From Taeniopygia guttata (Eukaryota > Chordata > Aves > Passeriformes > Estrildidae): DNA of 64,000 nt. The position numbers and the translations under genes were made by a program. How positions within the stretch are numbered: position 1 is the stretch's first letter; each line of letters begins with the position of its first letter. A model generated the notes under the pieces. It saw only the letters and a list, made by a program, of their open reading frames with translations. It had not been told where the DNA came from and did not search any database. The DNA lies in assembly GCF_048771995.1 (NCBI RefSeq), contig NC_133028.1, positions 1,766,001 through 1,830,000 of the forward strand, given 5' to 3'. Below are positions 22,101 through 64,000 of this stretch, piece after piece.

Positions 22101-23002
22101 CCAGGCTGATCCTGAATCCTGAGAATTCCCAAATGTGGGAATCTCTGGGAATCACCCTCAAGCTGAACCCTAATCCCAGGAATTCCTGGATATGGGAATC
22201 CCCCCAGGCTGATCCCAAATCCCAGGAATTCCCAAATGTGGGAATCTTTGGGAATCCCAAGAATTCCTGGTTGTGGGAATCTCTGGGAATGCCCCTATGT
22301 TGATCCCGAATCCCAGGAATTCCCAAGGGTCGGAATCTCTGGGAATCCCCCCAGGCTGAACCCAAATCCTGAGAATTCCCAACTATGGGAATCTCTGGGA
22401 ATCCTGGGAATTCCCAGCTGTGGGAATGTCTGGGAATCACCCCCAGGCTGATCCCAAATCCCAGGAATTCCTGGATATGGGAATCTCTGGGAATCCCCCC
22501 AGGCTGATCCCAAATCCCAGGAATTCCTGGATATTGGAATGTAGGAATCACCCCAGGCTGATCCCAAATCCTGGGAATCCCCAGCTGTGGAAATCTCTGG
22601 GAATCACTCCAGACACAAATCTGACCTGAATCCAAATAATTTGTGGATTTTGGAATCTCTGGGAATCAATGCCAGGCTGAACCCAAATCCCAGGAATTCC
22701 TCGATATGGGAATCTCTGGGAATCCCCCCCCAGGCTGATCCCAAATCTTGAGAATTCCCAACTATGGGAATCTCTGGGAATTCCCAGCTGTGGGAATCTC
22801 TGGGAATCCCCCCCAGGCTGATCCCAAATCCCGGGAATTCCCGGCTCTGGAATCTCACCTGCCGGTTGAAGTCCTCCTCGTTCTCCATCCACATGTACTC
22901 GGCGAAGGGGTTCTTCTCCTTCTCCTCGTGCCCATTCCCAGCCGGATCCTCCTTGGATTTGGGATTGGACGCCGTGGTGCTGGCGAGCTCGGAGCCATTC
23001 AT
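19105..23002 (-). CDS. PAIP2B: poly(A)-binding protein-interacting protein 2B, complete, 3 coding exons
   Basis: PAIP2B binds cytoplasmic poly(A)-binding protein and displaces it from poly(A) and eIF4G, lowering translation. Coding exons on -: 23002-22859, 20531-20355, 19161-19105. These are 48, 59 and 18 codons plus stop, all phase 0, giving 125 aa; human is 123 aa. Visible parts are [18 protein letters not shown] (31-48), the acidic PAM1-type segment with [19 protein letters not shown] (63-81), and the C-terminal PAM2 motif [13 protein letters not shown] (110-122). MNGSELAST and GMGQLQQQL and GHGAEDIL favour PAIP2B over PAIP2. The gene is convergent with NAGK and divergent from ZNF638, as in human. 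Both coding introns are filled with minisatellites. Confidence 0.96.
19338..19515 (-). mobile_element. CR1 LINE 3' end with internal CCCATCCCAAT expansion
   Basis: On -, the usual CR1 tail words appear: CAGGCTGGATCCACCTGG-like on one side and CCACCCAAACCATTCCACAA on the other. Between them 19373-19470 is an expanded CCCATCCCAAT tract, so a microsatellite has grown inside the element. It lies in PAIP2B intron 2. Confidence 0.6.
19515..20335. repeat. PAIP2B intron 2 minisatellite (left part)
   Basis: Units near AATTCCAAGGATGGGACAAT and TTCCAGGGACAGAATTCCAG, about 20-40 bp with variable order. It extends almost to the donor of the middle coding exon at 20354. Confidence 0.88.
20355..20531 (-). 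CDS. PAIP2B: PAIP2B middle coding exon
   Basis: Residues 49-107, [19 protein letters not shown] to GHGAEDIL. Acceptor CGGGCAG and donor CTG|GTGAGG on -. Holds the acidic PAM1-type region and the [10 protein letters not shown] motif. Confidence 0.96.
20740..21420. repeat. TTTTCCCATGATTTTTCCAT array, right copy (PAIP2B intron 1)
   Basis: Same unit family as 18120-18885. A block of about 185 bp is duplicated within it: about 20920-21100 and 21110-21290 are nearly identical. Confidence 0.88.
21420..22035 (+). mobile_element. unique intron sequence with a decayed CR1 fragment
   Basis: 21670-21830 resembles the CR1 3' region seen elsewhere in the window: ACCTGGAAAATCCAGGGAAT, GGGAATGGCTTCCCATTGGA and GGAAGGAATTCCTG in the same order. 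The rest is unique AT-rich intron with poly-T runs (21895-21950). No exon seen. Confidence 0.45.
22040..22855. repeat. PAIP2B intron 1 minisatellite next to the first coding exon
   Basis: Units near CCCCCAGGCTGATCCCAAAT and GGGAATCTCTGGGAATC, total period about 55-65 bp, reaching to within a few bases of the donor at 22858. Confidence 0.88.
22859..23002 (-). CDS. PAIP2B: PAIP2B first coding exon
   Basis: Residues 1-48, [20 protein letters not shown] to NEEDFNRQ; donor CAG|GTGAGA on -. The start aligns with mammalian PAIP2B (MNGS). Confidence 0.95.
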
Positions 23003-39961: not shown

Positions 39962-41392
39962 ATGTTTAGCCCCAGAGGAACCTTGCCCCCGAGGCCCAGA
40001 GGACCCAACCCGTCAGGCACCAAACCCCCGGCAGCTTTCAGGGCCGGAGGCGCGGCGGGGCCGCCCAGGAAAGCCGCGCCCGCGACGCCCCAAGGAGCGC
40101 CCCAAAGATTATCGGGGCAGGACGCGCTGCAATGGACGGGTTCGCAGAGGATCAACGTCCGCGTCACGCTGCACAGGGCCGATCCCAGGAAAGTCAAGGA
40201 GAAGACCGGCCTGCACCAGGAGCAGAAGGGAGACCTCCGTGCCACTCGCTGGGATGGCGGCCACTGCCCCGCTGGCACCGCCGGGCCGAAGCCGCCCGGC
40301 CCGGTGCCGCTTTTGGAGCAGAGTTCCAACCCCCAGAACCGCTACACGCCCGAAAGCGCCTCCAGCATTTTAGCGAGCTTCGGGCTGTCCAACGAAGACC
40401 TGGAGGAGCTGAGCCGCTACCCCGATGACCAGCTGACGCCCGAGAACATGCCGCGGATCCTGCGGGAGATCCGCATGCGGAAGATGGGCCACGCCGTGCC
40501 CGGCCTGCACGCTCCCAGCCGGGCGGAGGAGCCGGCGGGCGAGAGCAGCGGCGCCGCCGTCAAGGGCAAAGTGATCGACTACGGCCACGCCAGCAAGTAC
40601 GGCTACACCGAAGACCCGCTGGAGATCCGCACCTACACCCCTGAGGCGCTGCCCGAGGAGCCGCTGGAAGCGCGCGTCTACACTCCTGAAAGTTTGAGCG
40701 CGGAGAACCGGGAAGAATTCCAGCGGGAGCAGAGCGTGCCGGTGGCCGTCCCGCCGCCCAACGTGCCGTGCAACCCCGTGTTCCCGGCCGAAGACCTCAT
40801 CAAGCTGCCGGCCTTCCCCACCGACTCCTCGCCCGCTCCGACGTTTTTCCCAGCCGAGCCGCCGGCCAAGGTGCAGGTGCTGTGCAGCGCCGTGCCCGCC
40901 GCGCTGCCGGTGGTGAAGCCGGTGTCCCAGCCGCCCGTGCCGCCGGTGCTGCCGCCCATCCTGCCGGCGCTGCTGCCCACGCCGCTGCCGCAGCCCATGC
41001 TGCCCCCGGTGATACCGCCGCTGGTCCAGCCGCCCGTGTCCCAGCACGTGTTGCCCGCCTTGACGCCGCCGCCCTTCTCGGCCGGGCTCCTGGCCGCCAT
41101 CAGCCAACACGAGCAGAAGCAGCGCGACACCGGCGGCGCCCATCCCGCGCCCGGCACCTCCGGCGGGGCCTCGGCGGGACACAAACCCTTCCACAAACCC
41201 TTCCACCCGCCGGCACAGGAGCCCATCAAATCCCCGTTCGGGGTGGTGAAGGCGTCCTGGCTGCCCGTGTTCCCGGACCAGAAGAGCAAACGCCTGCCCA
41301 CCCCGTCCATGATGAACGACTACTATGCCACGTCGCCGCGAATATTCCCACATTTGTGTTCTCTGTGTAACCTTGAATGCACTCATATGAAG
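39962..41392 (+). CDS. ZNF638: ZNF638 first coding exon (477 codons)
   Basis: From MFSPRGTLPPRPRGPNPSG to the first half of the matrin-type finger, FPHLCSLCNLECTHMK; donor AAG|GTGAGT. Codon third positions are strongly G/C, and a proline-rich stretch (VPPVLPPILPALLPTPLPQ) is expanded relative to mammals. Long antisense frames here are shadows of this bias. Confidence 0.95.
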
Positions 41393-44300
41393 GTGAGTGG
41401 CTTTCCCAGATTATTCCCTAAACGTGTGTACTCGGCACCTTTTCCTGCCGCTGATTGTTTTCCCTGGGAATTCTGTGGATTGGGATGCTGGTCGCCAAGT
41501 TTGAGTGTTGGGAATGGTGCTAGAAATGATTGTAACGGCGTGTTCTGCTCCCAGTTGCATTTCAGAGTTGCTTTATGTGTTGATTTTTATTTTCTTTAGT
41601 GTTGAAGTGATTTCTGTCTTTGCAGCGGGTTTCAAACAACAAAACCTCAAGCAGCAGAGTGAAATATTAATATCGTGTGTGGGGGACTCAAATCATGTCT
41701 GGGGGTGGCTGAGATGTCTGTGTGTTCATTCCCTCCCCTCCTCCTCCTCCAAAACTCTGCCTGAAAACAAGAGAGCCCATTTAGAACCTGAAATTTCATC
41801 TTCCAAATCAGCTCTGTGTGTGACAACGCTGAATATTCCAGAGGATGGCTCGGGGCGACGCGGAAAATGCGTCCATTCATCCTGCTGGGCTTTCGGCCTT
41901 GGAGGAAATCACAGTTCCAGCTTTGAAGGAAAAAATAAAGGGAGAAAATGGTGGATATTGGGAGATAAAAAATGTTTTGGAAGTTGTGGGTTTTCTTGGA
42001 AAAGCCCAAGGTTTGAGGTGTCAGAAATGTGGGAGAACGTGATATGAAAAACAAACAGAGTAATTAATTAATAATTATTTAATGTGTTTGAATTGCAAAG
42101 TGTGGAGAGGACGTGGGGGAGGGATTTTTGTAATTTGGCAAAATCCTGGAGATTTTAGGCTCTGTTTGCTATGAATTAAAAATCTGGCTGAAAATGGGGA
42201 CGGCTTTGTTAGGGAAAACCAAACAGAAATTCCCAAACCCTTTCCCCCAAGAAGCGCTGAGGGTCATGGAGATGGGCAACTGGAAGTGGGAAGGATGATT
42301 TAAAATAAAAATGGGTAAAATTGAACAGGAAAACAAAAGTCGGGGGGTGTTAACAAAGGAAAAAAACTATTTTGGAAAAAGGAATTAATTTAGATGGGAA
42401 TTCTTCTCTCATTTAAGGAGGGAAATGTCACTAAAAATCTGTTGACAAATTAGCTCTGGCTGAGGGTTTTGGGGTGGACTGAAGGTGGTGAGATCTTGTC
42501 CCAGTGGCACTGCGGTGGGATGTGTTCCCAGGAATGCTGATCCTACTGCAGCCTCCCAAATCTGCTCCCTGTCCTTCAGCTCTGGCCCAGATTCGCTTCC
42601 TTTGGGAAGCGTTGGGTGTTTGTCTCCCAGGGACACAGGAGACCTCCCAGGTGCAGAAGAACCCACAAGAGTTCGGGAGCTTTTATCCCAGAAATAAAAC
42701 TTGGATGGAGAAATGTCCAGCTGGTGCATCCATGAATTGCAGAGATCGACGAATTCCTCTCAGTTCCAGCTCTGCAGTTCGGCGAATCCGGTCAGTTTTG
42801 GGAGGTTGGAGATGACTTGGACATTCCAGGTTTGTCTTCCCAACCATTCCCTGTCCCGTTGTGGGAGAGCTGGATGGGACCTCAGGTTGGAAGAGCCACC
42901 AGATCTGGTGATTCCCAAGGATTTCAGACATTTGATGCTGTCCCACGTAGCCTCGCTGTCCCTGGCCTGGAGAAATGGATTTCATGGATGGAGCGCTCGG
43001 GACTGGATGGTGGCACCTGGAGTTGTCACCAGCTCCGTGCCCAGGTGGGACCAGCTGCCCTGGGATTGGGATCGGCGCCGTTCAACGTCTCCATCGGTGA
43101 CATGGACACCGGGATCGGTCACCCTTGGCACGGTGAAGGTGACACCGAGCTCTGCACTGGGATCACACCTGGAGAGGTGGGACCATCCCAACATCGTGAG
43201 GCTCAGCGAGGGCAGGAGCTCCTGGGCAGGACAATCCCGGCGCAGATCCGAGATGGGAAGAGAACGATTGGAGCAGCCCTGGGAGAAGGATTTGGGGTGT
43301 CATGGATGGGAAGCTCCGAACGTCCCTGACGGATCCCTGTGCCCTGGGCTGATCCCACAGTGTGGGCAGCAGGAAAGGTGGGAATTCTGCCCAGGTGAGA
43401 CCCCACCTGCAGAGCTTTGGGGCAACGTCAGGAGGACCTGGAGCTGCTGGAGCAAATCCAGAGGTGGCCATGGAGCTGCTCTGGAGCCAGGTTGGGAAAA
43501 GTGGGAATGTTCTCCTGGAGAAGGGAAAATTCCAGGGAATGCTCAGAGTCCCTGAAGGGGATCCAGGAGAGCTGGAGAGGAACTGGGGACAAGGACAGAG
43601 GGACAGGAGCCAGGGAATGGCTCCCACTGGGAAAGGGGAGATTGGGCTGGGATCTTGGCAAGGAATTGCTGGCTGGGAGGGTGGGGAGGGGCTGGGCTGG
43701 AATTCCCAGAGAAGCTGTGGCTGCCCCTGGATCCCTGGAGTTCTTAAGGCCAGGTTGGATGGATTTGGATCCACCTGGGATTAGGGAAGGTGGTGGGAAT
43801 GGGGTGGGATTTAAGGTCCCTTCCAACCCAAACCATTCCAGGATTCCGGGATAACAAGACCCGACATCAGATGAAGATGAAGGTGCCTAACAAGGAAAAC
43901 ATTTTCTATCCCACGTTTGAAGACCCTGAAGACAAAATTCCAGTGATGGATTCCAAATTCAGGCTGTTGGTGCTGAGCACCCTTTTTCCATGGATTTTTC
44001 CATGGTTTTTCCATGGATTTTTTTAATCTCTTCTTGGATTAACTCATTTTGGATCCGACCACGCCGCATTGCCTATGGGAAGAGAATTGAATCAGCCATT
44101 GGATTATGAAACCCAGAGGTTCCCACCTGGATATGGAATATTCATCCAAACATCATTAGTCATGCCAAAACTCTGGAAGCTGAATTTTCCCTGGAAAAAA
44201 ATCCTCCTGGGTGTTTTTTTTTACACATTTGTGATACATTTTAATGTTTTGGTTTTTGGTTGTTTTTTTGTTTTTTTTTTTTGGTTCAGAAGCTACAGTT

Positions 44301-47300
44301 TTGGTATTTCCCACCTGCATCCAGAATTTTTTATGGAAAATGGATCGTCTTCATGTTTCAAGCAGGCAGGTCCAAAATGTTGGGAATTTATGGAAAAAAT
44401 GGTGGAAATTTGTGGAGATTTCCGTGGAAGGTGGGGTTGGGGCAGCACCAGAATTTGATGGATTTGGCCTCATTTTGATTTTGGGCAGGAAGGGATGTGG
44501 TGAGAGGTTGGACTCTGATCTTCAGGAACGTTCCTGTGGGATCCTCAGGGTTGGCTCTAAGGAGGTGCAACCACACCAAGGTGGATTTTTGGGCATTAAA
44601 ATCAGAATTTGAGGCAAAAATTGATGCTTGGGCTAGGTATTCCCAAAAATCTTTGTGTCCTGGATCTTTTTTTAGGCAAAATTCGCAGTTCTGCTCTGGG
44701 GTGGGCGGAATCTGGCCCCCTGCTGTTCCCTTTTAATTCTAATTTCCCAAATCCTCAAAATCTCAAAGAATTTTATGGATATTCTATGGAGCAGTTTCGT
44801 TTTCCGCTCAGAATCGCGTCCTGTTGGAATAACAAAGCGGAATTTGTGGGATTCCTCCTTCTCCAAACACTTCACCTCTTGGATGGAGCAGATTTCTTGG
44901 AGTAACAACGATTCCTTCATCCTCACTCCCATCACATCTGGAATGAAGTGGATTTGAAGCATTCCCAGCACGAGGGATGGGATTGATCCTTATTTTTATC
45001 CAGTTTTATTCCCTAAATCCATTCAAAGTTGGGGGTGACGCCTCCTTGGACCTCGAATCTGGGAAATCCTTGGACTTTTCAGTTTTCCATGAAGATTTGC
45101 ACTTGGAATTCCTTTATTGGACACTTTGCTCCATCACCTTCTGCTTCCAGGATTTCTTGGTGGTGATCCATGAGTGAGAGGAGGGTGGGGATGGAATTAG
45201 GGAAGGTGGGAATGGAGGAGTTTGGATGGAATTTTTCCTCTCACTGAGATTTGATGGGAAGGGATCCTGTACTTTTAAGGGAAGGATTTCTTTGGATCCC
45301 TGGAAAAATCATGGCTGCTCCATCCCTGGAATGTCCAAATCCAGGTTGGATGGGGCTTGGAGCAACTTGGGATGATCTTTAGGTTCCCTTCCTACCCAGC
45401 CATTCCATGATGATTCCATGGGCAGTGGAATATTCCCAAAGAGTGGGAAGGGCCAGGAATGAGACAAAAAGGAGAAAAATCCATAAATCCAGCAGGGTTT
45501 GGATTCTGTGGCCGGTGGAATATTCCCAAAGAGTGGGAAAATCCAGGAATGAGACAAAAAGGAGGAAAATCCATAAATCCAGATGTTTTTGGCTGGTGAG
45601 GACCTGGCAAGGGGAAGGAGATGCCCAAAAGTCTTGGATCAGCAGCTGGAAGGATTTGGGAGCCAAAACCCCTCCTTTGCACCATGGAATTGGAATTCTG
45701 GGAGCCAAATTCCCTCTGGCACCATGGATTTGGAATTCTAGGAGCCAAATTCCCTCTTCATTCACACCAGATTTTCCTTGAGGAACAGCTTTGGTTTATC
45801 CTGGTTAAATTCAAACCTGGAAAAATCCAGATCCTTGGGAATGGGATTGCTTAGGGATAGCCTGGAATTAGGGAAAAGCAGCTTGGAATGCTGAAATTGC
45901 TGCTTTATCCTCATGGGAATTATTCCATCATCCTGGTTCTTCAGGTCCATTATTTAATTATAATTATTCCATATTTGGTTGGATTTCATGCTGTAAGAGC
46001 AGCCAGAAGTTGATTTTTTGTTTTTCCCCAAGGATATTTAATAATTATCATTGGTGATGTTCCACTTTGAAGAATTCCAGAGTTTCCAAGAATTTCCAGA
46101 GTTTTCCTGCCTCCTTTTTTTTCCCAGCTCCCTGTTAAACCCGAATTTAGGGGTTTTTATGTGGCATTAAATCCTGTTTTTATCAGATTTTTTAAACGAT
46201 AAACGAGTGTGAAAAACATCCCGAGGCTCTGGAGCGACCTTTGAGCTGTGACATGATGGGAAGTGAAGATTCCCAGAGCTCCAGGCACGGAAATTCCGGG
46301 CTGGGAATGAGATTGGATGTGAAGATGGCACATTTGGAGGGAGCTGGAATTGCTCACGGATGTGACAGCAAATCGTGGATTTCTTCCCTTTCATTCTGAT
46401 TTTTTTGGAGCAGCCTGTGGTGATCCACGTGCTGCTGCCATCCCCAGCGTGGGGGTGGGTTAATTGATGAATTAATTGATTTAATTAATGGGTTGAATTA
46501 ATTAATTTAATCAATTCATTGAGTTAATTGATTTAATTGAGGTTTTTGCTCTGGAGCATTGATAATCGGCTTTTAACCTCCTGCCTGAATTCCATGGAAA
46601 TTTGACTTTTCCGAGGTAAAAACGGGCTGGGAAATGCAGCCCCGAGGGATGGGGATGATCCCGGACTTTTCCACCTGATCCCGCTTTTCCCAATGTTCCT
46701 TTTCCCCCCAGGATTGGATCCTGCACCAGAACAACCCCGCACACCTCGAGAGCTGCCGCAGGCTGCGCCAACAGTAAGGGACGCGCTGGGGATCCATTGG
46801 GAATGTCCTGGGGATCCGCTGGGGATCCATTGGGAATATCCCGGGGATCCATTGGGAATATAATGGGGATCCATTGGGAATCCCTTGGGAAACCACTGGG
46901 GATCCATTGGGAAAACACTGGAGATCCATTGGGAATCCATTTGGGATCCATTGGGGAGATGCTGGGAGTCCATTGGGAATCTGGGGATCCATGAGGAATG
47001 AATTGAGGATCCATTGGGAACCCATTGGGGATCCATTGGGAATCTGCTGGGAATCCAGTAAAACTCCATTGGGGATCAATTGGGAAACCACTGGGAATGC
47101 ATTGGAAATCCAATGGGGATCCACTGGGAACCCATTGGGAAACCACTGGTGATCTTTTGGGAATCTGCTAGGAATCCATTTGGAATCTGCAGATGATCCA
47201 CTGGGGATCCCTTGGGGATCTGCTGGGAATGCATTGGAAATGCATTCCATTTGGAACCCATTGGGGATACATTTGGGATCCACTGGGGATCCATTGGGAA

Positions 47301-50300: not shown

Positions 50301-53300
50301 CCCAATCCCATACCCCAAATCCCGTATTACCTTTCCCCTCTCCCCAGTCCTACATTCCCTTTCCCCGACCCCATATCCCCAATCCCATACCCCAGACCCC
50401 CTTTCCCAATCCCATATTCCCTTTCCCCATTCCCCAATCCCATTCCTCAACCCCATATCCCATATCCCCAATCCCCATCCCATACTCCCATTCTCCTTTC
50501 CTAATCACATATTCCCTTTCCCCATTCCCCAATCCCATATCCCCAATCCCACATTCTGTTTCCCCAACTCCATATCCCATATCCCATATCCCCAATCCCC
50601 ATCCCATATCCCCATTCTCCTTTCCTAATCGCGTATTCCCCACTCCCCAATCCCATATCCCCAATCCCATATACCCAATCCCATACCCCAAATCCCGTAT
50701 TACCTTTCCCCTCTCCCCAGCCCCACATTCCCTTTCCCTGACCCCATATCCCGAATCCCATACCCCAGACCCCCTTTCCCAATCCCATATTCCCTTTCCC
50801 CATTCCCCAATCCCACATTCTGTTTCCCCAACTCCATATCCCATATCCCCAATCCCCATCCCATATCCCCATTCTCCTTTCCCAATCGCATATTCCCTTT
50901 CCCCATATCCCCAAATCCCCCCTCCCCAATCCCATATCCCAAATCCTGTATTACCTTTCCCCTCTCCCCAGTCCCACATTCCCTTTCCCCGACCCCATAT
51001 CCCCAACCCCATATCCCCAATCCCACATTCTGTTTCCCCAACTCCATATCCCCAATCCCCATCCCATATCCCCATTCTCCTTTCCCAATCACATATTCCC
51101 TTTCCCCATATCCCCAATCCCCACTCCCCAATCCCATGTACCCAATCCCATACCCCAAATCCCGTATTACCTTTCCCCTCTCCCCAGCCCCACATTCCCT
51201 ATCCCCAACCCCATATCCCCATTCCCCTTTCCCAGTCCCATATTCCCTTTCCCCATTCCCTAATCCCATATCCCCAATCCCACATTCTGTTTTTCGAACT
51301 CCATATCCCCAATCCCCATCCCATACCCCCATTCTCCTTTCATATTCACATATTCCCTTTCCACATTTCCAAATCCCATATCCCCAATCCCCACTCCCCA
51401 ATCCCATATACCCAATCCCATATACCCAAATCCCGTATTACCTTTCCCCTCTCCCCAGTCCCACATTCCCTTTCCCCGACCCCATATCCCCAACCCCACA
51501 CCCCAGACCCCCCTTATCTCCCCGTTCCCGTTGCCGCTGTCTGACGGTGTCGGTGGCCCCGCAGGCACGGCGCGGACCGCAAGGAGAACCGCACGCCGCG
51601 CCGCCGCTCGGGTTCGTGCAGCCCGAGCCGCTGGTCCCCGTCCCGCCGCTGCCCCGCGGGCCCCGCGCGCCGCCGCCGCTCCCGGTCCCGCAGCCCCGGG
51701 CGGCCCCGGCGGCCGCGCTCCCGCAGCCCGCGGCACCCGCCGCGCCCGCGCTCCCGCTCCCGGCCCCGCTCCCGCAGCCGCTCCCGCTCCCCGCAGCGGC
51801 CCCGCGCCGCCCCCCGCGGCAGCCCCCGGCCACGGAGATCGCCCAGCGCCGCCCGCAGGCCCGGCCGCGCCCCGCAAGGTGACTGCCAGCAGGGGAACCG
51901 GGAACCGGGGCGGGGGAACACCGGGAAATGCGGGAACACCGGGGACCGGGAAATGGGAACCGGGAACTGCGGGAACCGAGAACTGCGGGAACCCCGGGAA
52001 GTGCGGGAACTGCGGGGACCGGGAAATGGGAAACAGGAATCACGGGAACCGGGAACTGCGGGAACCCCGGGAAATGGGAACCGGGAAGTGCGGGAACCGG
52101 GAAATGGGAACCGGGAACCGGGAAATGGCTACTGGGAAGTGCGGGAACCCCAGGAAGTGCGGGAACTGGGAAATGTGGGAACTGCGGGAACCGGGAAATG
52201 GGAACCGGGAATTGTGGGAACCCCAGGAAATGGGAACCGGGAAATGCGGGGACCAGGAAATGCGGGAACCGGGAAATGGGAAACAGGAATCACGGGAACC
52301 GGGAAATGCAGGAACCCCAGGAACTGCGGGGGGCAAAAACCGGGAAATGCAGGAACCGGGAAATGGGAACCGGGAACTGCGGGGACCGGGAAATGGGAAC
52401 CGGGAACTGCGGGAACTGGGAAATGGGAACCGGGAATCACGGGAACCGGGAAATGCAGGAACCCCGGGAACTGCGGGGGGCGGGAACCGGGAAATGGGAA
52501 CCAGGAACTGCAGGGTCCGGGAAATGCGGGAACCGGGAAATGGGAAACGGGAATCACGGGAACCAGGAAATGCAGGAACCCCGGGAACTGCGGGGGCCGG
52601 GAAATGGGAACTGGGAAGTGCGGGAACCAGGAAATGGGAACCGGGAAATGCGGGAACTGCAGGAACCGGGAAATGCGGGAACTGCGGGAACCGGGAAATG
52701 AGAACTGGGAACTGCGGGAACCCCGGGAAGTACGGGAAACGGGAAATGCGGGAGGCGGGAACCGCGGGAAGTGCGGGAAATGGGAATTGCAGGAACCACG
52801 GGAACTAGGAAATGCGGGAACCCCGGGAACTGCGGGAACCGGGAACTGCGGGAATCGCAGGAAATGCGGGAACTGTGGGGACCGGGAAGTGGGAACCGGG
52901 AATTGCGGGAACCCCGGGAAGTACGGGAAACAGGAATCACGGGAACCGGGAATTGTGGCGGGCGGGAAGTGTGGGAAATGGGAATTGCGGGAACCACGGG
53001 AAATGGGAACCGGGAACTGCAGAAACCAGGAATTGCGGAAACCCCGGGAACCGGGAGGCAGAAACAGGGGGAACACCGGGAACCCCGGGAACCTGGAAAC
53101 GTGGGAGGCACGGGAGAGTCCCAGAGGGAATTTCGGCTATTCAGGAGGGTTCCCCAAGGGAATTTCGGGAATTCAGGGGGATTCCCAACGGTTTTTGTCA
53201 CCCCCAAAGGGAATTTTGGGAATTCACGGGGATTCCTGGCAGGAATTTTGGGAATTAAGGGGGATTCCCAAAGGGTTCTGTCATGCCCAAAGGGAATTTT

Positions 53301-56300
53301 GGGAATGCTCAGTGGGATTCCCGATGGGAATTTTGGGAATGCTCAGTGGGATTCCCAATGGGAATTTTGAGAATGCTCAGTGCAATTCCCAAAGGAATTT
53401 TTTTGAATGTTCAGTGCAATTCCCCATGGGAATTTTGGGAATGTTCTGTGGGATTCCCAAAGGAAATTTTGGGACTGCTCAGTGCAATTCCCGATGGGAA
53501 TTTTGGAAATGCTCAGTGCAATTCCCAGTGGAAATTTTGGGAATGTTCTGTGGAAATCCCAATGTTTTTTCACCCATAATTGGAATTTTGGGACTGCTCA
53601 GTGCAATTCCCAATGGGAATTTTGGGAATGCTCCGTGGAAATCCCAAAGGTTTTTCCCCCCAGTGGGAATTTTGGGATTCCCAGGATTTTTTTAGGGATA
53701 AATGGAAATAATTTGGGAATTCTCTGACCAATAACCGCCCTGTGGGTTCTCTGCAGCCGTGCAGCAGCCAGGCATTAATTAAGGACTAATTAAAGACTAA
53801 TTAAGGACTAAATAAAGCAGCCCAGGAAGGCTCTGAGCCCGTAAGTACTGGAGGCTCAGAGTCCCAAACAATTCCCAGAAAATTCCCAAATAATTCAAAA
53901 AACATTTTAATAATTTTTTAAAAATCCTTTTTTTTCCGCAAAAAATTCACATTTCCCCAAAACAAAATCCTTTTTTCCTCCCAAAATTCCCTCCCAAAAT
54001 TTCCATTTTTCCCCAAAAAAATTCCCAAAAAAACTGTATTTTTCCCAAAATCTAAAAAAAGTTCTTTCTTTAATTCCCAAAAAAATTCCATTTTTTTTCT
54101 TCCAAAATTCCCTTTTTTTTTGCCCCAAAAATTCCCATTTTTCCCTCCTAATATTCCCAGAAAATCTCCCCAAAACTCCCATTTGTTCCCCAAAAAATCC
54201 ACCCCAAAAATTCCTTTTTGTCCCAAAATCCCCCCAAAATATCGTGTAAAAATTTTTAAAAATCCCATTTTTAGTCCCAAAAATCCCCCTAAAAATTCCC
54301 ATTTTTTCCCCCCAAAAATTTCCAGAAAATCCTCCCAAAATCTCCCATTTTCCCCCTAAAAATTCCTATTTCCCCCCCTCCCAAAAAAATTATATAAAAT
54401 TCTCTTTTTTTCCCTCCAAACCTCCCAAAAATTTCCCATTTATTAGTCCCAAAAATCCCTCCAAAAATTCCCTTTTTTTCCCCACCCAGTGTGGGTTCCC
54501 GTTGTTCCCTCTGGCAGCCGCAGTCGGGGCCACGCCGTGCTGGTAGCCCCCAAAATCCAAAAGAATTCGCATTTTTTCCCCAAAAGAATTCCCATTTTTC
54601 CCTAAAAATTCCCTTTCCCCCCCAAAAAATCCCATTTTCCCCCATAAATTCTTATTTTTCGCCCAAAATTCCCACTGTTTCCCCACCCAACTGTGGGTCC
54701 GGTTGTTCCCTCAGGCAGCCGCAGCCGGGGCCGGGCCACTCTGGAGGCCCCCAAATCAAAAAAAAGTCGCACTTTCCCCCAAAAAATTCCCATTTCTCTC
54801 AAAAAATTTCCATTTTTTTCTCCCAAAATTCCCATTTTCCCCGAAAAATTCCCATTTTTTTTTCCCCCGAAAACCCCAAAACTCCCATTGTTTCCGCACC
54901 CAACGGCCAATTCCGTGGCCGCTGTTCCCTCAGGCAGCCGCAGCCGGGGCCGGGCCGCGCTGGTGGCTCCCAACATCCAAAAAAATTCCCATTTCTTCCC
55001 CAAAAAATTTCAATTTCTCTCAAAAAAATTCCCATTTTCCCTCCAAAATTCCCATTTTTCGCCCAAAATTCACATTGTTTCCGTACCCAACCGTGGCTTC
55101 CCATTGTTGCCGTTCTTCCCTCAGGCAGTCGCAGCCGCAAGCAGATGCGCTGGTGGCCCCCAACATCCAAAAAAATTCGCTTTTTTTACCGAAAAAATTC
55201 CCATATTCTCCCCAAAATTCCCATATTTTTCCCCAAAAAATTCCCGAAAACGTGTTTTTCTCCCAAAATTCTCATTGTTTCTGCACACAACCGTGGCTTC
55301 CTGTTGTTGCCGCTGTTCCGTCCCCTCGGGCAGCCGGGGCCGGGCTGTGCTGGAGGCCCCCAACATCCAAAAAAATTCGCTTTTTTTACCCAAAAAATTC
55401 CCATATTCTCCCCAAAATTCCCATATTTTTCCCCAAAAAATTCCCGAAAACCTGTTTTTCTCCCAAAATTCCCATTATTTCCTCACACAACCGTGGCTTC
55501 TCGTTGTCGCCGCTGTTCCGTCCCCTCGGGCAGCCGGGGCCGGGCCGCGCTGGTGGCCCCCAACATCCAAAAAAATCGCTTTTTTTACCCAAAAAAATCC
55601 CATATTCTCCCAAAAATTACCATATTTTTCCCCCAAAAATTCCCGAAAACCTGTTTTTCTCCCAAAATTCCCATTGTTTCCGCACACAACCGTGGCTTCC
55701 CGTTGTTGCCGTTCTTCCCTCAGGCAGTCGCGGCCGCAAGCAGCTGCGCTGGTGGCCCCCAACATCCAAAAAAATTCGCTTTTTTTACCCAAAAATTTCC
55801 CATATTCTCCCCAAAATTCCCATATTTTTCCCCAAAAAATTCCCGAAAACCTGTTTTTCTCCCAAAATTCCCATTGTTTCCGCACACAACCGTGGCTTCC
55901 CGTTGTTGCCGCTGTTCCGTCCCCTCGGGCAGCCGGGGCCGGGCCGCGGTGGTGGCCCCCAACAGCCAAAAAAATTCGCTTTTTTTACGCAAAAAATTCC
56001 CATATTCTCCCCAAAATTCCCATATTTTTCCCCAAAAAATTCCCGAAAACTTGTTTTTCTCCCAAAATTCCCATTGTTTCCGCACACAACCGTGGCTTCC
56101 CGCTGTTCCGTCCCCTCGGGCAGCCGGGGCCGGGCCGCGCTGGTGGCTCCCAAATCCAAAGAAATTCGCATTTTTCCCCAAAAAAATTTCAATTTCTCTC
56201 AAAAAAAATCCCATTTTCCCTCCAAAATTCCCATTTTTCGCCCAAAATTCCCATTGTTTCCGCACACAACCGTGGCTTCCCGTTGTTCCGTCCCCTCGGG

Positions 56301-59300
56301 CAGCCGGGGCCGGGCCGCGCTGGCGGCCCCCAACATTTAAAAAAATTCGCTTTTTTTACCCAAAAAATTCCCATTTCTCTCAAAATTCCCATATTTTTCC
56401 CCAAAAAATTCCCGAAAACCTGTTTTTGTCCCAAAATTCCCACTGTTTCCTCACACAACCGTGGCTTCCCGTTGTCGCCGCTGTTCCGTACCCTCGGGCA
56501 GCCGGGGCGAGGCCGCGGTGGTGGCCCCCAACATCCAAAAAAATTCGCTTTTTTTACCCAAAAAAATCCCATATTCTCCCCAAAATTCCCATATTTTTCC
56601 CCCAAAAAATTCCCGAAAACCTGTTTTTCTCCCAAAATTCCCACTGTTTCCGCACACAACCGTGGCTTCCCGTTGTTGCCGTTCTTCCCTCAGGCAGTCG
56701 CGGCCGCAAGCAGCTGCGCTGGAGGCCCCCAACATCCAAAAAAATTCTCTTTTTTTTTACGCAAGAAATTCCCATATTCTCCCCAAAATTCCCATATTTT
56801 TCCAAAAAAAATACCGAAAACCTGTTTTTCTCCCAAAATTCTCATTGTTTCCGCACACAACCGTGGCTTCTCGTTGTCGCCGTTGTTCCGTCCCCTCAGG
56901 CAGCCGGGGCCGGGCCGCGCTGGTGGCCTCCAACATCCAAAAAAATTCACTTTTTTTACGCAAAAAATTCCCATATTCTCCCCAAAAAAATCCCATATTC
57001 TCCCCAAAATTCCCATATTTTTCCCCGAAAAATTCCCGAAAACCTGTTTTTCTCCCAAAATTCCCATTATTTCCGCACACAACCGTGGCTTCCCGTTGTT
57101 GCCGTTGTTCCGTCCCCTCGGGCAGCCGGGGCCGGGCCGCGGTGGTGGCTCCCAACATCCAAAAAAATTCGCTTTTTTTACCCCAAAATTTCCAATATTC
57201 TACCCACAATTCTCATATTTTTCCCAAAATAAAATCCCGAAAACCTGTTTTTCTCCCAAAATTCCCACTGTTTCCGCACACAACCGTGGCTTCCCGTTGT
57301 TCCGTCCCCTCGGGCAGCCAGGGCCGCGCCACGCTGGTGGCTCCCAAATCCAAAAAAATTCGCATTTTTACCCCCAAAAATTTCAATTTCTCTCAAAAAA
57401 ATTCCCATTTTCCTGCCAAAATTCCCCTTTTTCGCCCAAAATTCCCATTGTTTCCGCACCCAACCGTGGCTTCCCGTTATTGCCGTTGTTCCGTCCCCTC
57501 GGGCAGCCGGGGCCGGGCCGCGCTGTTGGCCCCCAACATACAAAAAAATTCGCATTTTTCCCCAAAAAAATTCCAATTTCTCTCAAAAAAAATCCCATTT
57601 TTCCTCCAAAATTCCCATTTTCCCTGAAAAATTCCCATTTTTTTCCCCCCGAAAACCCCAAAACTTCCATTGTTTCCGCACCCAACAGCCGATTCCATTG
57701 CCGCTGTTCCCTCAGACAGCTGCAGCCGGGGCTGGGCTGCGCTGGTGGCTCCCAACATCCAAAAAAATTCCCATTTTACCGCCAAAAAAATTCAATTTCT
57801 CTCAAAAAAATTCCCATTTTCCCTCCAAAATTCCCATTTTTCGCCCAAAATTCTTATTGTTTCCGCACCCAACCGTGGCTTCCCGTTGTTGCCGTTCTTC
57901 CCTCAGGCAGTCGCAGCCGCAAGCAGCTGCGCTGGAAGCCCCCAACATCCAAAAAAATTCGCTTTTTTTACCCAAAAAAATCCCATATTCTCCCCAAAAT
58001 TCCCACATTTTTCCCCAAAAAATTCCCGAAAACCTGTTTTTCTCCCAAAATTCCCATTGTTTCCGCACACAACCGTGGCTTCCCGTTGTTGCCGCTGTTC
58101 CGTCCCCTCGGGCAGCCGGGGCCGGGTCGCGCTGGTGGCTCCCAACATCCAAAACAATTCGCTTTTTTTACGCAAAAATTTCCCATATTCTCCCCAAAAT
58201 TCCCATAGTTTTCCCAAAAAAATTCCCGAAAACCTGTTTTTCTCCCAAAATTCCCATTGTTTCCGCACACAACCGTGGCTTCCCGTTGTCGCCGCTGTTA
58301 CGTCCCCTCAGGCAGCCGGGGCCGGGCCGCGCTGGTGGCTCCCAACATCCAAAAAAATTCGCATTTTTTCCCAAAAAATCCCCATTTCTCTCAAAAAATT
58401 TCCATTTTTTTCTCCCAAAATTCCCATTTTCACTGAAAAATTCCCATTTTTTTCTCCCCGAAAACCCCAAAACTTCCATTGTTTCCGCACCCAACAGCCG
58501 ATTCCGTTGCCGCTGTTCCCTCAGACAGCTGCAGCCGGGGCTGGGCTGCGCTGGTGGCTCCCAACATCCAAAAAAATTCCCATTTTCCCCCCAAAAAAAT
58601 TCAATTTCTCTCAAAAAAAATCCCATTTTCCCTCCAAAATTCCCATTTTTCTCCCCAAATTCCCATTGTTTCCGCACACAACCGTGGCTTCTCGTTGTCG
58701 CCGCTGTTCCGTCCCCTCGGGCAGCCGGGGCCGGGCCGGGCCGCGCTGGTTGCCCCCAATAACCAAAAAAATTCGTTTTTTTTACCCAAAAAAATCCCAT
58801 ATTCTCCCCAAAATTCCCATATTTTTCCCAAAAAAAATCCCGAAAACCTGTTTTTCTCCCAAAATTCCCATTGTTTCCGCACACAGCCGTGGCTTCTCGT
58901 TGTTGCCGTTGTTCCGTCCCCTCGGGCAGCCGGGGCCGGGCCGCGCTGGTGGCTCCCAAATCCAAAAAAATTCTCTTTTTTTTAACGCAAAAAATTCCCA
59001 TATTCTCCCCAAAATTCCCGTATTTTTCCCCCAAAAATTCCCGAAAACCTGTTTTTCTCCCAAAATTCCCATTATTTCCGCACACAACCGTGGCTTCCTG
59101 TTGTTCCGTCCCCTCGGGCAGCCGGGGCGAGGCCGCGGTGGTGGCCCCCAACATCCAAAAAAATTCGCTTTTTTTACCCAAAAAAATCCCATATTCTCCC
59201 CAAAATTCCCATATTTTTCCCCCAAAAAATTCCCGAAAACCTGTTTTTCTCCCAAAATTCCCACTGTTTCCGCACACAACCGTGGCTTCCCGTTGTTGCC

Positions 59301-62300
59301 GTTCTTCCCTCAGGCAGTCGCGGCCGCAAGCAGCTGCGCTGGAGGCCTCCAACATCCAAAAAAATTCTCTTTTTTTTACGCAAAAATTTCCCATATTCTC
59401 CCCAAAATTCCCATATTTTTCCCCCAAAAATTCCCGAAAACCTGTTTTTCTCCCAAAATTCCCATTATTTCCGCACACAACCGTGGCTTCCCGTTGTTCG
59501 TCCCCTCGGGCAGCCGGGGCCGGGCCGCGCTGGTGGCCCCCAACATCCAAAAAATTTCCCATTTTTACCCCCAAAAAATTCAATTTCTCTCAAAAAAAAT
59601 CCCATTTTCCCTCCAAAATTCCCATTTTTCGCCCAAAATTCCCATTGTTTCCGCACACAACCGTGGCTTCCCGTTGTCGCCGTTGTTCCGTCCCCTCGGG
59701 CAGCCGGGGCCGCGCCGCGCTGGAGGCCCCCGCGCAGAATCAAAAATAAAAAATTCTCAATTTTTTCCCCAAAAAATTCCCAAAATTCCCCAAAAATCCC
59801 CCAAAACCCCCCACATTTCCGCCGCCAACCGTGTGTTCCCGCTCGCTGTTCCCGCAGGCAGCCGCAGCCGCAGCCGCAGCCGCAGCCGCAGCCGGGGCCG
59901 GGCCGCGCTCGAGGCCGTGGTGCGCTCGCTCGGGCCGCGCTTCCTGGCCGAGTTCCAGCGGCACCGCTGCCTGCAGGGGGCGCTGCCGGAGCCGCCCGCC
60001 GCCCGCGCCGCCCGCAAAACCCCCAAACCCGCCCCAAAACCCACCCCAAAATCCGCCCCAAAAGCCGCCCCGAAAGCCGCACCCAAGGATGGAGCCTCGC
60101 AAGCAACGGGAGCGACCCCAAAAACCGACAAGGAGGAGGAGGAGGAGGAGGATGATGAAGCGGCTGGGAAGAGTCAACCCTATAATAGGGTGAGTGTGGG
60201 GTTTGGGGAACTTATAGGGTTTGAGGGGTTCCTAGGGTTTGTGGGGTTTGGGGAATATGGAGGGTTTGGGGATTTTGGGGGTTTGTGGGGTTTGGGGAAC
60301 TTGGGGGGTTTGGGGGAGTTCCTGGGCTTTGGGGTTTTTGGGGTTTGGGGAGTCTTGGGGTTTGTGGGTTTTTGGAAATTCCTGGGGTTTGGGGAACTTA
60401 CAGGGTTTGGGGATTCCTGGGTTTTTTGGGGTTCGGGGAACTTGTGGGGATTTGGGAATTCCTGGAGTTTGTGGAGTTTGGGTATTCTTGGAGTTTGTGG
60501 GGTTTGGGGAACTTGGGGGGTTTGGGGGAGTTACTGGGCTTTGGGGTTTGTGGGGTTCGGGAGACTTGTGGGATTTGGGGATTCCTGGGGTTTGGGGTAC
60601 TTGTGGGGTTTGGGGGAGTTCCTGGGCTTTGGGGTTTTTGGGGTTTGGGGAGTCTTGGGGTTTGTGGGTTTTTGGGAATTCATGGGGTTTGGGGAACTTA
60701 GAGGGTTTGTGAATTCCTGGGGTTTGGGGAATTTGTAGAGTTTGTGGGGTTTGGGGGTTCCTAGGGTTTGTGGGGTTTGGGGAATATGGAGGGTTTGGGG
60801 ATTTTTGGGGTTTGTGGGGGTTTGGGGAACTTGGGGGGCTTGGGGGAGTTATTGGACTTTGGGGTTTGTGGGGTTTGGGGATTCCTGGGGTTTCTGGGGT
60901 TTGGGGATTCCTGGGGTTTCTGGGCTTTGGGGTACTTGTGGGGTTTGGGGGAGTTCCTGGGCTTTGGGGTTTTTGGGGTTTGGGGAGTCTTGGGGTTTGT
61001 GGGTTTTTGAGAATTCCTGGGGTTTGGGGAACTTACAGGGTTTGGGGATTCCTGGGTTTTTTGGGGTTTGGGGAACTTGTGGGGTTTTTGGGAATTCCTG
61101 GAGTTTGTAGGGTTTGGGTATTCTTGGGGTTTGGGGGGTTTGTGGGAATTCCTGGGATTTGGGGGAATTCCTCAGGTTTGTGAATTCCTGGGGTTTGGGG
61201 AATTTGTAGAGTTTGTGGGGTTTGGGGATTCCTGGGGTTTTTGGGAATTCCTGGGGTTTGGGGGGTTTGGGGAATATGGAGGGTTTGGGGATTTTTGGGG
61301 TTTGTGGGGGTTTGGGGAACTTGGGGGGTTTGGGGGAGTTCCTGGGGTTTGTGGGTTTTTGGGTTTGGGGAGTCTTGGGGTTTGTGGGTTTTTGGGAATT
61401 CCTGGAGTTTGTGGGGTTTGGGTATTCTTGGGGTTTGGGGATTCCTAGGGTATTCTGGGGGTTTGGGGGGTTTGTGGGAATTCCTGGGGTTTGAGGGGTT
61501 TGGGTATTCTTGGGGTTTGGGGGGTTTGTGGGAATTCCTGGGATTTGGGGGAATTCCTGGGGTTTGGGGGGTTTGGGGAATTTGTAGAGTTTGTGGGGTT
61601 TGGGGATTCCTGGGGTTTGTGGGAATTCCTGGGGTTTGGGGGGTTTGGGGAATATGGAGGGTTTGGGGATTTTTGAGGTTTGTGGGGGTTTGGGGAACTT
61701 GGGGGGTTTGGGGGAGTTACTGGGCTTTGGGGTTTGTGGGGTTTGGGGATTCCTGGGGTTTCTGGGGTTTGGGGTACTTGTGGGGTTTGTAGGAATTCTT
61801 GGGGTTTGAGGTTTGTGGGGTTTGGGGAGTCTTGGGGTTTGTGGGGTTTGGGGATTCCTGGGGTTTCTGCGGTTTGGGGTACTTGTGGGGTTTGGGGGAG
61901 TTCCTGGGCTTTGGGGTTTTTGGGGGTTGGGGAGTCTTGGGGTTTGTGGGTTTTTGGGAATTCCTGGGGTTTGGGGAACTTACAGGGTTTGGGGATTCCT
62001 GGGTTTTTTGGGGTTTGGGGAACTTGTGGGGTTTTTGGGAATTCCTGGAGTTTGTAGGGTTTGGGTATTCTTGGGGTTTGTGGGGTTTGGGGAACTTGGG
62101 GGGGTTTGGGGGAGTTACTGGGCTTTGGGGTTTGTGGGGTGCTGGAGACTTGTGGGATTTGGGGGTTTCTGGGGTTTGGGGAACTTGTGGGGTTTGGGGG
62201 AGTTCCTGGGCTTTGGGGTTTTTGGGGTTTGGGGAGTCTTGGGGTTTGTGGGGTTTTGGGAATTCCTGGGGTTTGGGGAACTTATAGGGTTTGGGGATTC

Positions 62301-63439
62301 CTGGGTTTTTTGGGGTTTGGGGAACTTGTGGGGGTTTTGGGAATTCCTGGGGTTTGGGGGGTTTGGGGAATTTGTAGAGTTTGTGGGGTTTGTGAATTCC
62401 TGGGGTTGTGGGAATTCCTGGGGTTTGGGGGTTTGGGTGTTCTTGGGGTTTGGGGGGTTTGGGGATTCCTGGGATTTGTGGGAATTCCTGGGGTTTGAGG
62501 GGTTTGGGGGGGTTTGGGTGTTCTTGGGGTTTGGGGGGTTTGGGGATTCCTGGGATTTGGGGGAGTTCCTGGGGTTTGTGGGGTTTTTGGGGTTTGGGGA
62601 GTCTTGAGGTTTGTGGGTTTTTTGGGAATTCCTGGGGTTTGGGGAACTTACAGGGTTTGGGGATTCCTGGGTTTTTTGGGGTTTGGGGAACTTGTGGGGT
62701 TTTTGGGAATTCCTGGAGTTTGTGGAGTTTGGGTATTCTTGGGGTTTGGGGGGTCTGTGGGAATTCCTGGGGTTTGTGGGAATTCCTGGGGTTTGTGGGT
62801 TTTTGGGGTTTGGGGAGTCTTGGGGTTTGTGGGTTTTTGGGAATTCCTGGGGTTTGGGGAACTTACTGGGTTTGAGGGTTTTGGGGGTTCCTGGGGTTTG
62901 TGGGGTTTGGGGATTCCTGGGGTGTTGGGAGGTTTGGGTATTCTTGGGGTTTGTGGGAATTCCTGGGGTTTGAGGTTTGTGGGGTTTGGGGATTCTTGGG
63001 GTTTGGGAGTTTTTGGGGGGATTCCTGGGGTTTGGGGGGTTTGGGGATTCCTGGGGTTTGTGGGGTTTGGGGATTCCTGGGGTTTGTGGGGTTTTGGGGA
63101 TTCCTGGGGTTGGTGGGAATTCCTGGGGTTCCCAAAACAATCCGGGTTTGGGGGATTTTGGGGATTTTTAGGGGTTTTTGGGAATTCTGCACTGCTGACT
63201 CATGGGATTTTTGGGGGTTGTACCCAGTCACTCGGGATTTTTGGGAATTTTTGGGAATTCTGCCCCCTCACCCCGTCTCTGTGGCCGCGCAGCTGCTGCG
63301 GGAGGAGCTGCTGAGCTGCGGGACGGTGCTGCAGATCTCGGAGCTGCCGGACTCGGGATTCTCTGAGCAGGACCTGAAGCGGCTGGTGCAGCCCTTCGGG
63401 AAGGTCAGCGACCTGATCCTGCTGCGCTCCCGCAACCAG
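39962..63439 (+). CDS. ZNF638: zinc finger protein 638 (NP220), 5' part, six coding exons, runs off the window
   Basis: ZNF638 is a nuclear-speckle, cytidine-cluster-binding protein with matrin-type zinc fingers, an RS region and RRMs. It acts as a splicing cofactor and in silencing of unintegrated retroviral DNA. Coding exons: 39962-41392, 46712-46773, 48303-48341, 51565-51878, 59858-60189, 63293-63439. All are GT-AG with matching phases, giving 775 codons here. Family blocks seen are MFSPRG.../RGPNPSG (start), [69 protein letters not shown], the finger CSLCNLECTHMK-DWILHQN, YPEWNPE, an RS region, RAALEAVV, and RRM1 QISELPDSGFSEQDLKRL. The start aligns with human MSRPRFNPRG. The remaining C-terminal half lies beyond 64 kb. 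Confidence 0.95.
41393..42825 (+). other. ZNF638 intron, unique
   Basis: Unique AT-rich intron sequence; short frames without family resemblance. No array. Confidence 0.45.
42830..43860 (+). mobile_element. CR1 LINE, 5'-truncated, about 1 kb (RT end and 3' UTR)
   Basis: The longest CR1 piece in the window. It contains the typical late-ORF2 words GTGCCCAGGTGGGACCAGCT, ATCGGTGACATGGACACCGG, CTGGAGAGGTGGGACC, GGTGAGACCCCACCTGCAGA, then CTGGAGAAGGGAAAATTCCA, AAGGCCAGGTTGGATGG and the terminus CCAACCCAAACCATTCCAGG. Frames are broken throughout; an old, inactive copy. Confidence 0.8.
43861..45300 (+). other. ZNF638 intron, unique
   Basis: Unique AT-rich intron with a TTTTTCCATGGATTTTTCCATGG micro-repeat (43985-44020) and T-rich runs (44213-44283). 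No exon recognised. Confidence 0.45.
45300..45425 (+). mobile_element. CR1 LINE 3' tail
   Basis: CCTGGAATGTCCAAATCCAGGT, TTGGAGCAACTTGGGATGAT and a CAGCCATTCCATGATGATTCC end. Confidence 0.75.
45420..45765. repeat. two small tandem duplications
   Basis: GTGGAATATTCCCAAAGAGT with its following 60 bases occurs at about 45425 and 45513. ATTCTGGGAGCCAAATTCCC with CACCATGGATTTGG occurs about three times in 45655-45760. Confidence 0.75.
45766..46711 (+). other. ZNF638 intron, unique with TTAATTGATT tract
   Basis: Mostly unique. 46455-46545 is an AT-rich TTAATTAATTGATTTAAT low-complexity tract. It ends in the pyrimidine tract and CCCCCAG acceptor of the next exon. Confidence 0.5.
46712..46773 (+). 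CDS. ZNF638: ZNF638 coding exon 2 (second half of zinc finger)
   Basis: Encodes DWILHQNNPAHLESCRRLRQ plus two bases. Supplies the two histidines that complete the matrin-type finger started in exon 1. Donor ACA|GTAAGG. Confidence 0.95.
46785..47512 (+). repeat. GGGGATCCATTGGGAATCC minisatellite
   Basis: About 38 copies of an 18-20 bp unit near TGGGGATCCATTGGGAATCC start only ten bases after the exon 2 donor. Confidence 0.92.
47512..48175 (-). mobile_element. two overlapping or adjacent CR1 3' ends
   Basis: On -, 47512-47865 reads as a CR1 3' region (CCATGGATGGGGTTGGAATT, GGAGCCAGGGAATGGCTCCC on -). 47870-48175 begins a second copy with CAACCTGGGATAAGGGAAGG and a tail at 48105-48175. Confidence 0.7.
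48303..48341 (+). CDS. ZNF638: ZNF638 coding exon 3 (39-nt micro-exon)
   Basis: Encodes the completion of Gln then YPEWNPEAHSSN plus two bases; acceptor TCATCGACAG, donor AACAG|GTACCT. Matches human YPDWNPEILPS and fits the phases on both sides. Confidence 0.92.
48535..49030 (+). repeat. TTTAATCCAGTTTTTTCCAT array
   Basis: AT-rich units of 12-20 bases such as CCAGTTTTATCCATTTTTTC, with three nearly identical copies of TTTAATCCAGATTTTTTTCA at the right end. Confidence 0.85.
49030..51515 (+). repeat. CCCAATCCCATATTCCCTTT minisatellite, 2.5 kb
   Basis: 49030-49290 has CTCATTTCCCCTTTTCCCAA units. 49290-51515 has units such as CCCATATCCCCAATCCCCA, with a higher-order repeat of about 300-350 bp containing CCCAAATCCCGTATTACCTT, which recurs at least six times (about 50010, 50320, 50690, 50940, 51155, 51425). 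Pyrimidine-rich on the transcribed strand. Confidence 0.93.
51565..51878 (+). CDS. ZNF638: ZNF638 coding exon 4 (RS-rich region)
   Basis: Encodes RHGADRKENRTPRRRSGSCSPSR... and many SRSR/SPR dipeptides, residues 511-615; acceptor GCCCCGCAG, donor CAAG|GTGACT. Corresponds to human [21 protein letters not shown]. Extremely GC-rich. The RS region targets the protein to nuclear speckles. Confidence 0.93.
51885..53105 (+). repeat. GGGAACCGGGAAATGCGGGA minisatellite
   Basis: About 95 copies of an 11-13 bp unit such as GGGAACCGGGAAATG and CGGGAACTGCGGGAACCCC, with higher-order blocks (for example CAGGAATCACGGGAACCGGG at about 52030, 52280, 52425 and 52550). Starts six bases after the RS exon donor. 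Confidence 0.93.
53105..53665 (+). repeat. GGGAATTTTGGGAATGCTCA minisatellite
   Basis: About 15 copies of a 30-40 bp unit sharing GGGAATTTTGGGAATGCTCAG and GGATTCCCAATG. Confidence 0.9.
53666..54480 (+). repeat. unique strip, then CCCCAAAAATTCCCATTTTT array
   Basis: 53700-53880 is unique, with GACTAATTAAG repeated three times. 53880-54480 is an AT-rich array of CCCAAAAATTCCCATTTTTCC units, the same words as the non-coding half of the 200-bp units that follow. Confidence 0.85.
54480..59750 (+). repeat. 27-copy exon-bearing minisatellite, unit about 200 bp, in ZNF638 intron
   Basis: Each unit has a half of AT-rich CCCAAAATTCCCATTTTTCC words and a GC-rich half. The GC-rich half copies the 3' splice site and first about 40 nt of the ZNF638 exon at 59858 (CTCAGGCAGCCGCAGCCGGG, then GCCGCGCTGG). 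Anchors lie near 54513, 54707, 54930, 55121, 55325, 55526, 55720 and so on to 59698, mean spacing about 200 bp. About 11 of 27 copies keep a TCAG|GCAG-type acceptor; the rest read TCGGGCAG or TCTGGCAG. Several subtypes form higher-order blocks. Confidence 0.93.
59858..60189 (+). CDS. ZNF638: ZNF638 coding exon 5 (RS tract, ALE-VV segment, lysine/acidic tail)
   Basis: Residues 616-726; acceptor GTTCCCGCAG, donor AGG|GTGAGT. Begins GSRSRSRSRSRGRAALEAVV, where (AGCCGC)5 is an in-frame RS hexamer expansion at 59860-59890. Then follow a PKPAPKPTPKSAPKAAPK repeat and a KTDKEEEEEEDDE acidic run. Human has RSSDRKKALEDVVQRSG here. It is taken as the real exon because only this copy continues past about 40 nt to a donor in phase. 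Confidence 0.93.
60195..63165 (+). repeat. GGGGTTTGGGGATTCCTGGG minisatellite, 3 kb
   Basis: About 150 copies of TTTGGGGATTCCTGGGGTTTG and TTTGTGGGGTTTGGGGAAC words of 18-27 bp fill the intron before the RRM exon. Higher-order repeats are clear: the stretch around GGGGGAGTTCCTGGGCTTTG, GGGGAGTCTTGGGGTTTGTG, GGGAACTTACAGGG recurs at about 60310, 60600, 60940, 61890, 62190 and 62570. Very G-rich on the transcribed strand. Confidence 0.94.
63293..63439 (+). CDS. ZNF638: ZNF638 coding exon 6 (first half of RRM1)
   Basis: Residues 727-775: LLREELLSCGTVLQISELPD then SGFSEQDLKRLVQ and PFGKVSDLILLRSRNQ. Acceptor GGCCGCGCAG, donor CAG|GTACGG; 49 codons, phase 0. Matches human VLLITELPEDG and LFQPFGKVNDVLI (beta1, alpha1, beta2 of the RRM). 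The RNP1-containing exon lies outside the window. Confidence 0.94.
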
Positions 63440-64000
63440 GTACGGGAATTTGGGAATTTGGGAATTTGGGATTGGGAATGGGGGATTGGGATTGGTGCAG
63501 CCCTTCGGGAAGGTCAGCGACCTGATCCTGCTGCGCTCCCGCAACCAGGTACGGAAAAATGGGAATTTGGGATTGGGAATGTGGGATTGGGATTGGTGCA
63601 GCCCTTCGGGAAGGTCAGCGACCTGATCCTGCTGCGCTCCCGCAACCAGGTACGGAAAAACGGGAATTTGGGAATTTGGGATTGGGAATGGGGGATTGGG
63701 ATTGGTGCAGCCCTTCGAGAAGGTCAGCGACCTGATCCTGCTGCGCTCCCGCAACCAGGTACGGGAATTTGGGAATGTGGGATTGGGATTGGGAATGGGG
63801 GATTGGGATTGGTGCAGCCCTTCGGGAAGGTCAGCGACCTGATCCTGCTGCGCTCCCGCAACCAGGTACGGGAATTTGGGAATGTGGGATTGGGATTGGG
63901 AATGGGGGATTGGGATTGGTGCAGCCCTTCGGGAAGGTCAGCGACCTGATCCTGCTGCGCTCCCGCAACCAGGTACGGGAATTTGGGATTGGGAATGGGG
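63440..64000 (+). repeat. exon-bearing minisatellite: RRM1 exon 3' end plus donor, at least five copies
   Basis: The block GTGCAG followed by the last 48 nt of the RRM1 exon and the donor GTACGG recurs with GTGCAG at 63495, 63596, 63705, 63812 and 63919 (real one at 63386; spacing 101-109 bp). The linkers are GGGAATTTGGGATTGGGAAT words. Over the 48 nt only one base differs, in the third copy (GGGAAG to GAGAAG). Each copy is bounded by AG on the left and GT on the right. The array continues past the window edge. Confidence 0.95.

Follow-up and report, generated by a model that had tools for sequence, protein, structure and literature searches.

Tandem decoy splice acceptors in an intron of ZNF638 of Taeniopygia guttata, read as a large case of exon stuttering

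The intron upstream of one coding exon (exon B) of the gene ZNF638 in Taeniopygia guttata is partly filled by an array of 27 tandem units, each of which carries a decoy copy of the end of this intron, the splice acceptor, and the first codons of exon B. The array lies in a window of 64,000 nucleotides (NCBI RefSeq assembly GCF_048771995.1, contig NC_133028.1, positions 1,766,001 to 1,830,000 of the forward strand), and all coordinates below count from the first base of this window. Its units show tandem homology to the intron/exon junction and a mosaic of subtypes, and a second array follows at the donor of the next exon, exon C. In exon stuttering, as described for chicken, the lateral part of a coding exon is copied together with its splice donor or acceptor through the adjacent intron (Hron et al. 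2026, PMC12954441). We read the ZNF638 array as a new, large case of exon stuttering with a donor-side companion, and we consider it highly probable that it reflects the local intron instability of GC-rich bird genes and that its ladder of decoys is mostly passed over.

The acceptor-side array and its units

The array and the exons flanking its intron are laid out as follows (individual decoys are given by their first exon-like base; scores are from a position weight matrix, PWM):

51565..51878, plus strand: ZNF638 exon A, RS-rich, ending AAG/GTGACT (last base 51878, donor GT at 51879) and leaving one base of phase
54480..59735, plus strand: array of 27 tandem decoy units, each with an A/T/C-rich spacer, a branch-point-like CAAC, a pyrimidine tract, an acceptor, and about 29–35 nt of exon B start
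55125, 55724, 56694, 57907, 59314, plus strand: TCAG decoys of subtype A, PWM 11.1 vs 9.1 for the real acceptor
54715, 54934, 56900, 57716, 58312, 58525, plus strand: other TCAG decoys, PWM 7.3–9.0
55334..59704, plus strand: 15 subtype B copies with TCAG changed to TCGG; the remaining AG is four bases downstream, PWM 3.0–4.7
59858..60189, plus strand: ZNF638 exon B, source of the copies, with an open frame, splice sites, and a frame-preserving join with its neighbours

A previous sequence-only reading had proposed about 27 copies of the exon B acceptor and exon start at 54480..59860, in units of about 200 bp of which only the one at 59858 continues into the exon, and our counts agree. The array holds 26 matches to TC[AG]G[GA]CAG (11 with TCAG and 15 with TCGG, TCGGGCAG) and one further, degenerate copy at 54510, which makes 27 decoys upstream of the real acceptor. 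They are spaced 180–222 bp apart, with 158 bp from the last decoy to 59858, the sole copy that runs on into a complete exon. The copied stretch corresponds to the first ~59 nt of exon B, from which the copies differ by a shorter GCAGCC (Ser-Arg) repeat; the exon-like part of each copy comes to ~29–35 nt when read off the alignment of the units.

The same reading had expected the copies to align with the region 59840–59900, and they do: in local alignments to the real junction with its flanks (40+40 nt), scores of the 27 copies were 17–34, while the best of 96 control windows from 51.9–54.4 kb of the same intron scored 12. Scores of 5400 order-1 resamples, 200 for each copy, had a 99.9th percentile of 19.6 and a maximum of 22; 23/27 copies scored above this percentile and 18/27 above the maximum, leaving four that are individually not above chance at the 99.9th percentile. 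For the array as a whole, these controls rule out a chance or low-complexity resemblance. Exon B and the copies also have exon-coding sequence in common, with up to 28 nt matching exactly.

We then searched with 10 boundary queries from five exons, among which the exon 2 acceptor stands for an approximate position and not the true acceptor. Junction-spanning matches were found for the exon B acceptor (27) and the exon C donor (5), and none for the remaining 8 queried boundaries. The matches of the exon B acceptor comprise 21 inside the array and six low-complexity ones outside it (five in exon A and one in exon 2). At the exon B acceptor and the exon C donor, the copied segment thus reaches the exon border and includes the splice site.

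Simple pattern rules applied to 26 units distinguished acceptor types A (5 units), B (17), and C (4) as well as spacer types S1 (16), S2 (6), and S3 (3), with one spacer unassigned. All four combinations S1A, S1B, S2A, and S2B are present, so the units have exchanged modules. At 237 bp, the longest exact repeat (56491 and 59111, offset 2620) lies within the array and is a sign of recent block exchange; compared with its closest other unit, each decoy is 76–99.5% identical. A stretch of about 200 bp straddling the intron/exon B junction was probably multiplied in tandem inside the intron, and unequal exchange or gene conversion would have reshuffled its copies.

Splice-site strength and reading frame

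Since the founder unit held a whole 3' splice site, the pre-mRNA would carry a ladder of decoy acceptors, some with scores no lower than that of the real one. Our PWMs use approximate human frequencies, not MaxEnt, and the scores are rough. On this scale, the real acceptor at 59858 (9.1) ranks 7th of the 166 AGs in intron A–B, behind five subtype A decoys (11.1) and an AG at 54490 (9.6). Five of the 11 TCAG decoys thus outscore it, and 0/27 of the AGs four bases downstream reach its score. Every TCAG decoy scores higher than the acceptors presumed for exons A and C, which places the decoys within the range of sites that the gene seems to use and argues that they are not too weak.

In vertebrate splicing, acceptor and donor are paired across the exon between them. 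Within the array, the best donor-like site reaches 3.9 bits vs 9.7 for the exon B donor, and none equals the latter, in line with the earlier proposal of a ladder of acceptors without a following donor; decoy cassette exons were rejected on the same figure. Given decoys that are not weak and donors of at most 3.9 bits, it is probably the missing nearby donor and not acceptor weakness that shields the real site. With no good donor within exon range, the decoys would mostly be passed over for want of a partner and exon B would be spliced from 59858.

For the reading frame, exon A was joined in turn to 38 candidate AGs, of which 11/38 were in frame with exon B and 5/38 were both in frame and open to the exon B end. 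The sequence-only reading had placed the TCAG copies in the phase of the real exon, and this did not hold for most of them when spliced from exon A: 3/11 are in frame and only one (57716) is in frame and open through exon B, while the other 10/11 reach a stop after 41–1164 codons. Its related claim of an open frame without early stops is mostly unsupported and survives in one part. In the frame of exon B, the array has stops at 54544, 56338, and 57625. Array stops are rarer than expected, with 11 observed vs 56 ± 7 in 300 order-1 simulations, and the longest open stretch spans 1186 codons vs a 95th percentile of 615 in these simulations. As the units are mutual copies, this shortage does not amount to 27 independent observations; we therefore rejected the open frame as a preserved property, as it may merely reflect a stop-free founder unit. 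Leaky use of the decoys would give mostly stop-containing or frame-shifted mRNA.

The gene, the exon C array, and repeats in other introns

The identification of the gene as ZNF638, already made by the sequence-only reading, is supported by the match of exon C to Zinc finger protein 638 (6sxw, E 1.1e-7), the best among the PDB sequences listed, and by exon order. ZNF638 exons are present in order within the window. An exon at ~39965–41392 (exon 2) and exon A are 46% and 53% identical to the human ZNF638 sequence, and we take both to belong to this gene; a further exon at 46712–46773 sits between them. The coding exons are intact, with a five-exon partial model of 761 codons and no stop. A Pfam scan of this partial model gave 0 families at E 0.001 and hence no domain support. 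ZNF638 presumably lies on chicken chromosome 22.

The donor-side array begins shortly after exon C:

63293..63439, plus strand: ZNF638 exon C, start of an RRM, donor CAG/GTACGG
63493..64000, plus strand: second, donor-side array with the final 56 bp of exon C and the donor, truncated by the window end

The stretch 63389..64000 takes in the original exon C end, and five further copies of this end with the donor GTACGG (63493, 63594, 63703, 63810, and 63917) are 98–100% identical over 56 bp. Extending exon C to the third or fifth donor would add 210 or 426 nt, both multiples of three and stop-free, repeating LVQPFGKVSDLILLRSRNQ. Extensions by 109 and 319 nt are stop-free with a shifted frame, and one by 533 nt meets a stop.

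Tandem Repeats Finder (TRF) covers 77%, 92% (A–B), and 95% (B–C) of three consecutive ZNF638 introns. Repeat density jumps sharply inside the gene, from 6% after exon 2 to the 77–95% of these next three introns. In intron B–C (60190–63292), the repeat motif starts ~6–8 bases past the exon B end and is intronic, not exon-derived.

Upstream of ZNF638, exons of a PAIP2-family gene lie on the minus strand at 19108–22951, in agreement with the PAIP2B–ZNF638 neighbourhood of human. The stretches between these exons are 58% and 80% TRF-covered. The three exons have no copies of at least 20 nt in 17–25 kb besides themselves, and their stuttering was rejected on this ground.

Exon stuttering, rival explanations, and meaning

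Exon stuttering in chicken affects 236 introns of 115 genes, with 1–44 copies of an exon part of 20–187 bp spread over 112–23,555 bp, and 190/236 of these introns lie on dot chromosomes (Hron et al. 2026, PMC12954441). The same report describes strong length variation of stuttered introns between birds and intron variability that is slightly raised on chicken chromosomes 22, 25, and 33 as well. Its existence overturns the earlier suggestion that no bird gene with such an arrangement had been described. The ZNF638 array resembles these cases in that an exon edge and its splice site occur in imperfect tandems through the adjacent, heavily repeat-covered intron (A–B 92% by TRF) of a gene with intact coding exons, and its 27 copies, span of ~5.4 kb, and exon-part length all fall within the published ranges. 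In ZNF638, arrays occur on both the acceptor side and the donor side. The main text of that report does not mention ZNF638 (0 matches). Literature searches for "sequence stuttering" with intron returned nothing else on the subject; for ZNF638 with chicken, none of the matches listed concerned this intron by title or abstract start, and ZNF638/PAIP2B/DYSF/chromosome 22/chicken gave only an unrelated match.

We also applied the settings of the published screen (blastn-short with dust off, a minimum of 20 nt, and a bit score of 42.1 or higher), with an E-value limit set in the present analysis. For exon B, 11 copies passed among 19 matches of at least 20 nt, and for exon C 5/5 matches did. All passing copies are on the plus strand and solely in the adjacent intron, one of them exactly at 42.1, and 50 shuffled controls gave bit scores of at most 32.2. 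Owing to the greater length of the Ser-Arg repeat in exon B, the BLAST cores there begin at position 25 or 31 of the exon.

Outside of birds, a minisatellite that likewise multiplies a splice site of the gene it lies in is the human one that Turri and colleagues reportedly found in 1995 (Turri et al. 1995) with multiple splice donors in an interferon-induced transcript, said to be 6-16/IFI6, with 12-nt units whose donors are used. The ZNF638 array differs from it by multiplying candidate acceptors in units of ~200 bp. In GC-rich avian genes, introns filled with tandem motifs have been reported (Beauclair et al. 2019, PMC6792250). Intron A–B resembles these introns in being filled with tandem motifs, but exon-derived units with splice sites are not mentioned in the parts of that paper available to us.

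Several observations weigh against our interpretation. The acceptors presumed for exons A and C, at 4.9 and 3.7, have scores lower than or close to those of most decoys. TRF covers just 6% of the intron that follows exon 2 (41393–46711). From a single consensus, 16/26 units (all with spacer S1) differ by <20%, the edit distance reported for the imperfect repeats of chicken PHF8 (PMC12954441), and the other 10/26 differ by >20%. Diversity across the 26 units is 0.219 in the spacer, a figure inflated by spacer subtypes, vs 0.155 in the exon-like part, 0.102 from branch point to tract, and 0.082 in the AG block. Singleton changes in the S1 group number 3/852 vs 23/1612 unit-bases (p 0.012, uncorrected), with no significant result in the two other groupings tested within subtypes (p 0.62, 0.089). 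These figures give only a hint of constraint on the splice module, and we do not rely on selection there because the signal is weak.

The last of these points would fit functional decoys, with the exon A donor joined to decoy acceptors in stop-containing transcripts and array length tuning ZNF638 output. The high scores of five of the 11 TCAG decoys relative to both the real acceptor and those presumed for exons A and C, the stops met from 10/11 TCAG sites, the lower splice-module diversity, and the lower number of singletons in one grouping out of three all speak for such a role. We nevertheless regard it as unlikely, as the AG at the native position is lost in 15/26 strict copies, no donor-like site in the array exceeds 3.9, and the weak constraint signal is set against a homopolymer-rich spacer. 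Taken one step further, the array could be a length-variable splicing rheostat in which copy number sets the share of ZNF638 pre-mRNA diverted into stop-containing transcripts, every added subtype A unit contributing an acceptor with a higher score than the real one has. We think this quite unlikely; if true, and taken with the donor-side array of exon C, it would put one gene under repeat-number control at two splice sites.

Multiplication or mis-joining of copies by the assembler is very unlikely: the near-identity of the exon C donor-side copies and the exact 237 bp block could suggest it, but decoys differ even from their closest other unit (76–99.5% identity), the subtypes recur, the window is free of N, and the tandem structure of the chicken PHF8 intron was verified from raw nanopore reads (PMC12954441). 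The probability that low-complexity intron sequence resembles a splice site by chance is negligible despite the 92% TRF coverage and the four copies within the 99.9th percentile of the order-1 control, given that 23/27 copies exceed that percentile, all exceed the 96 non-array windows, and exon-coding sequence is common to them.

Read as exon stuttering, the ZNF638 array adds a large example to a phenomenon that was published in 2026, with acceptor-side and donor-side arrays combined in one gene whose exons are intact. Its ladder of acceptors would be a natural test of whether a nearby donor or the strength of the acceptor itself decides which acceptor is used.

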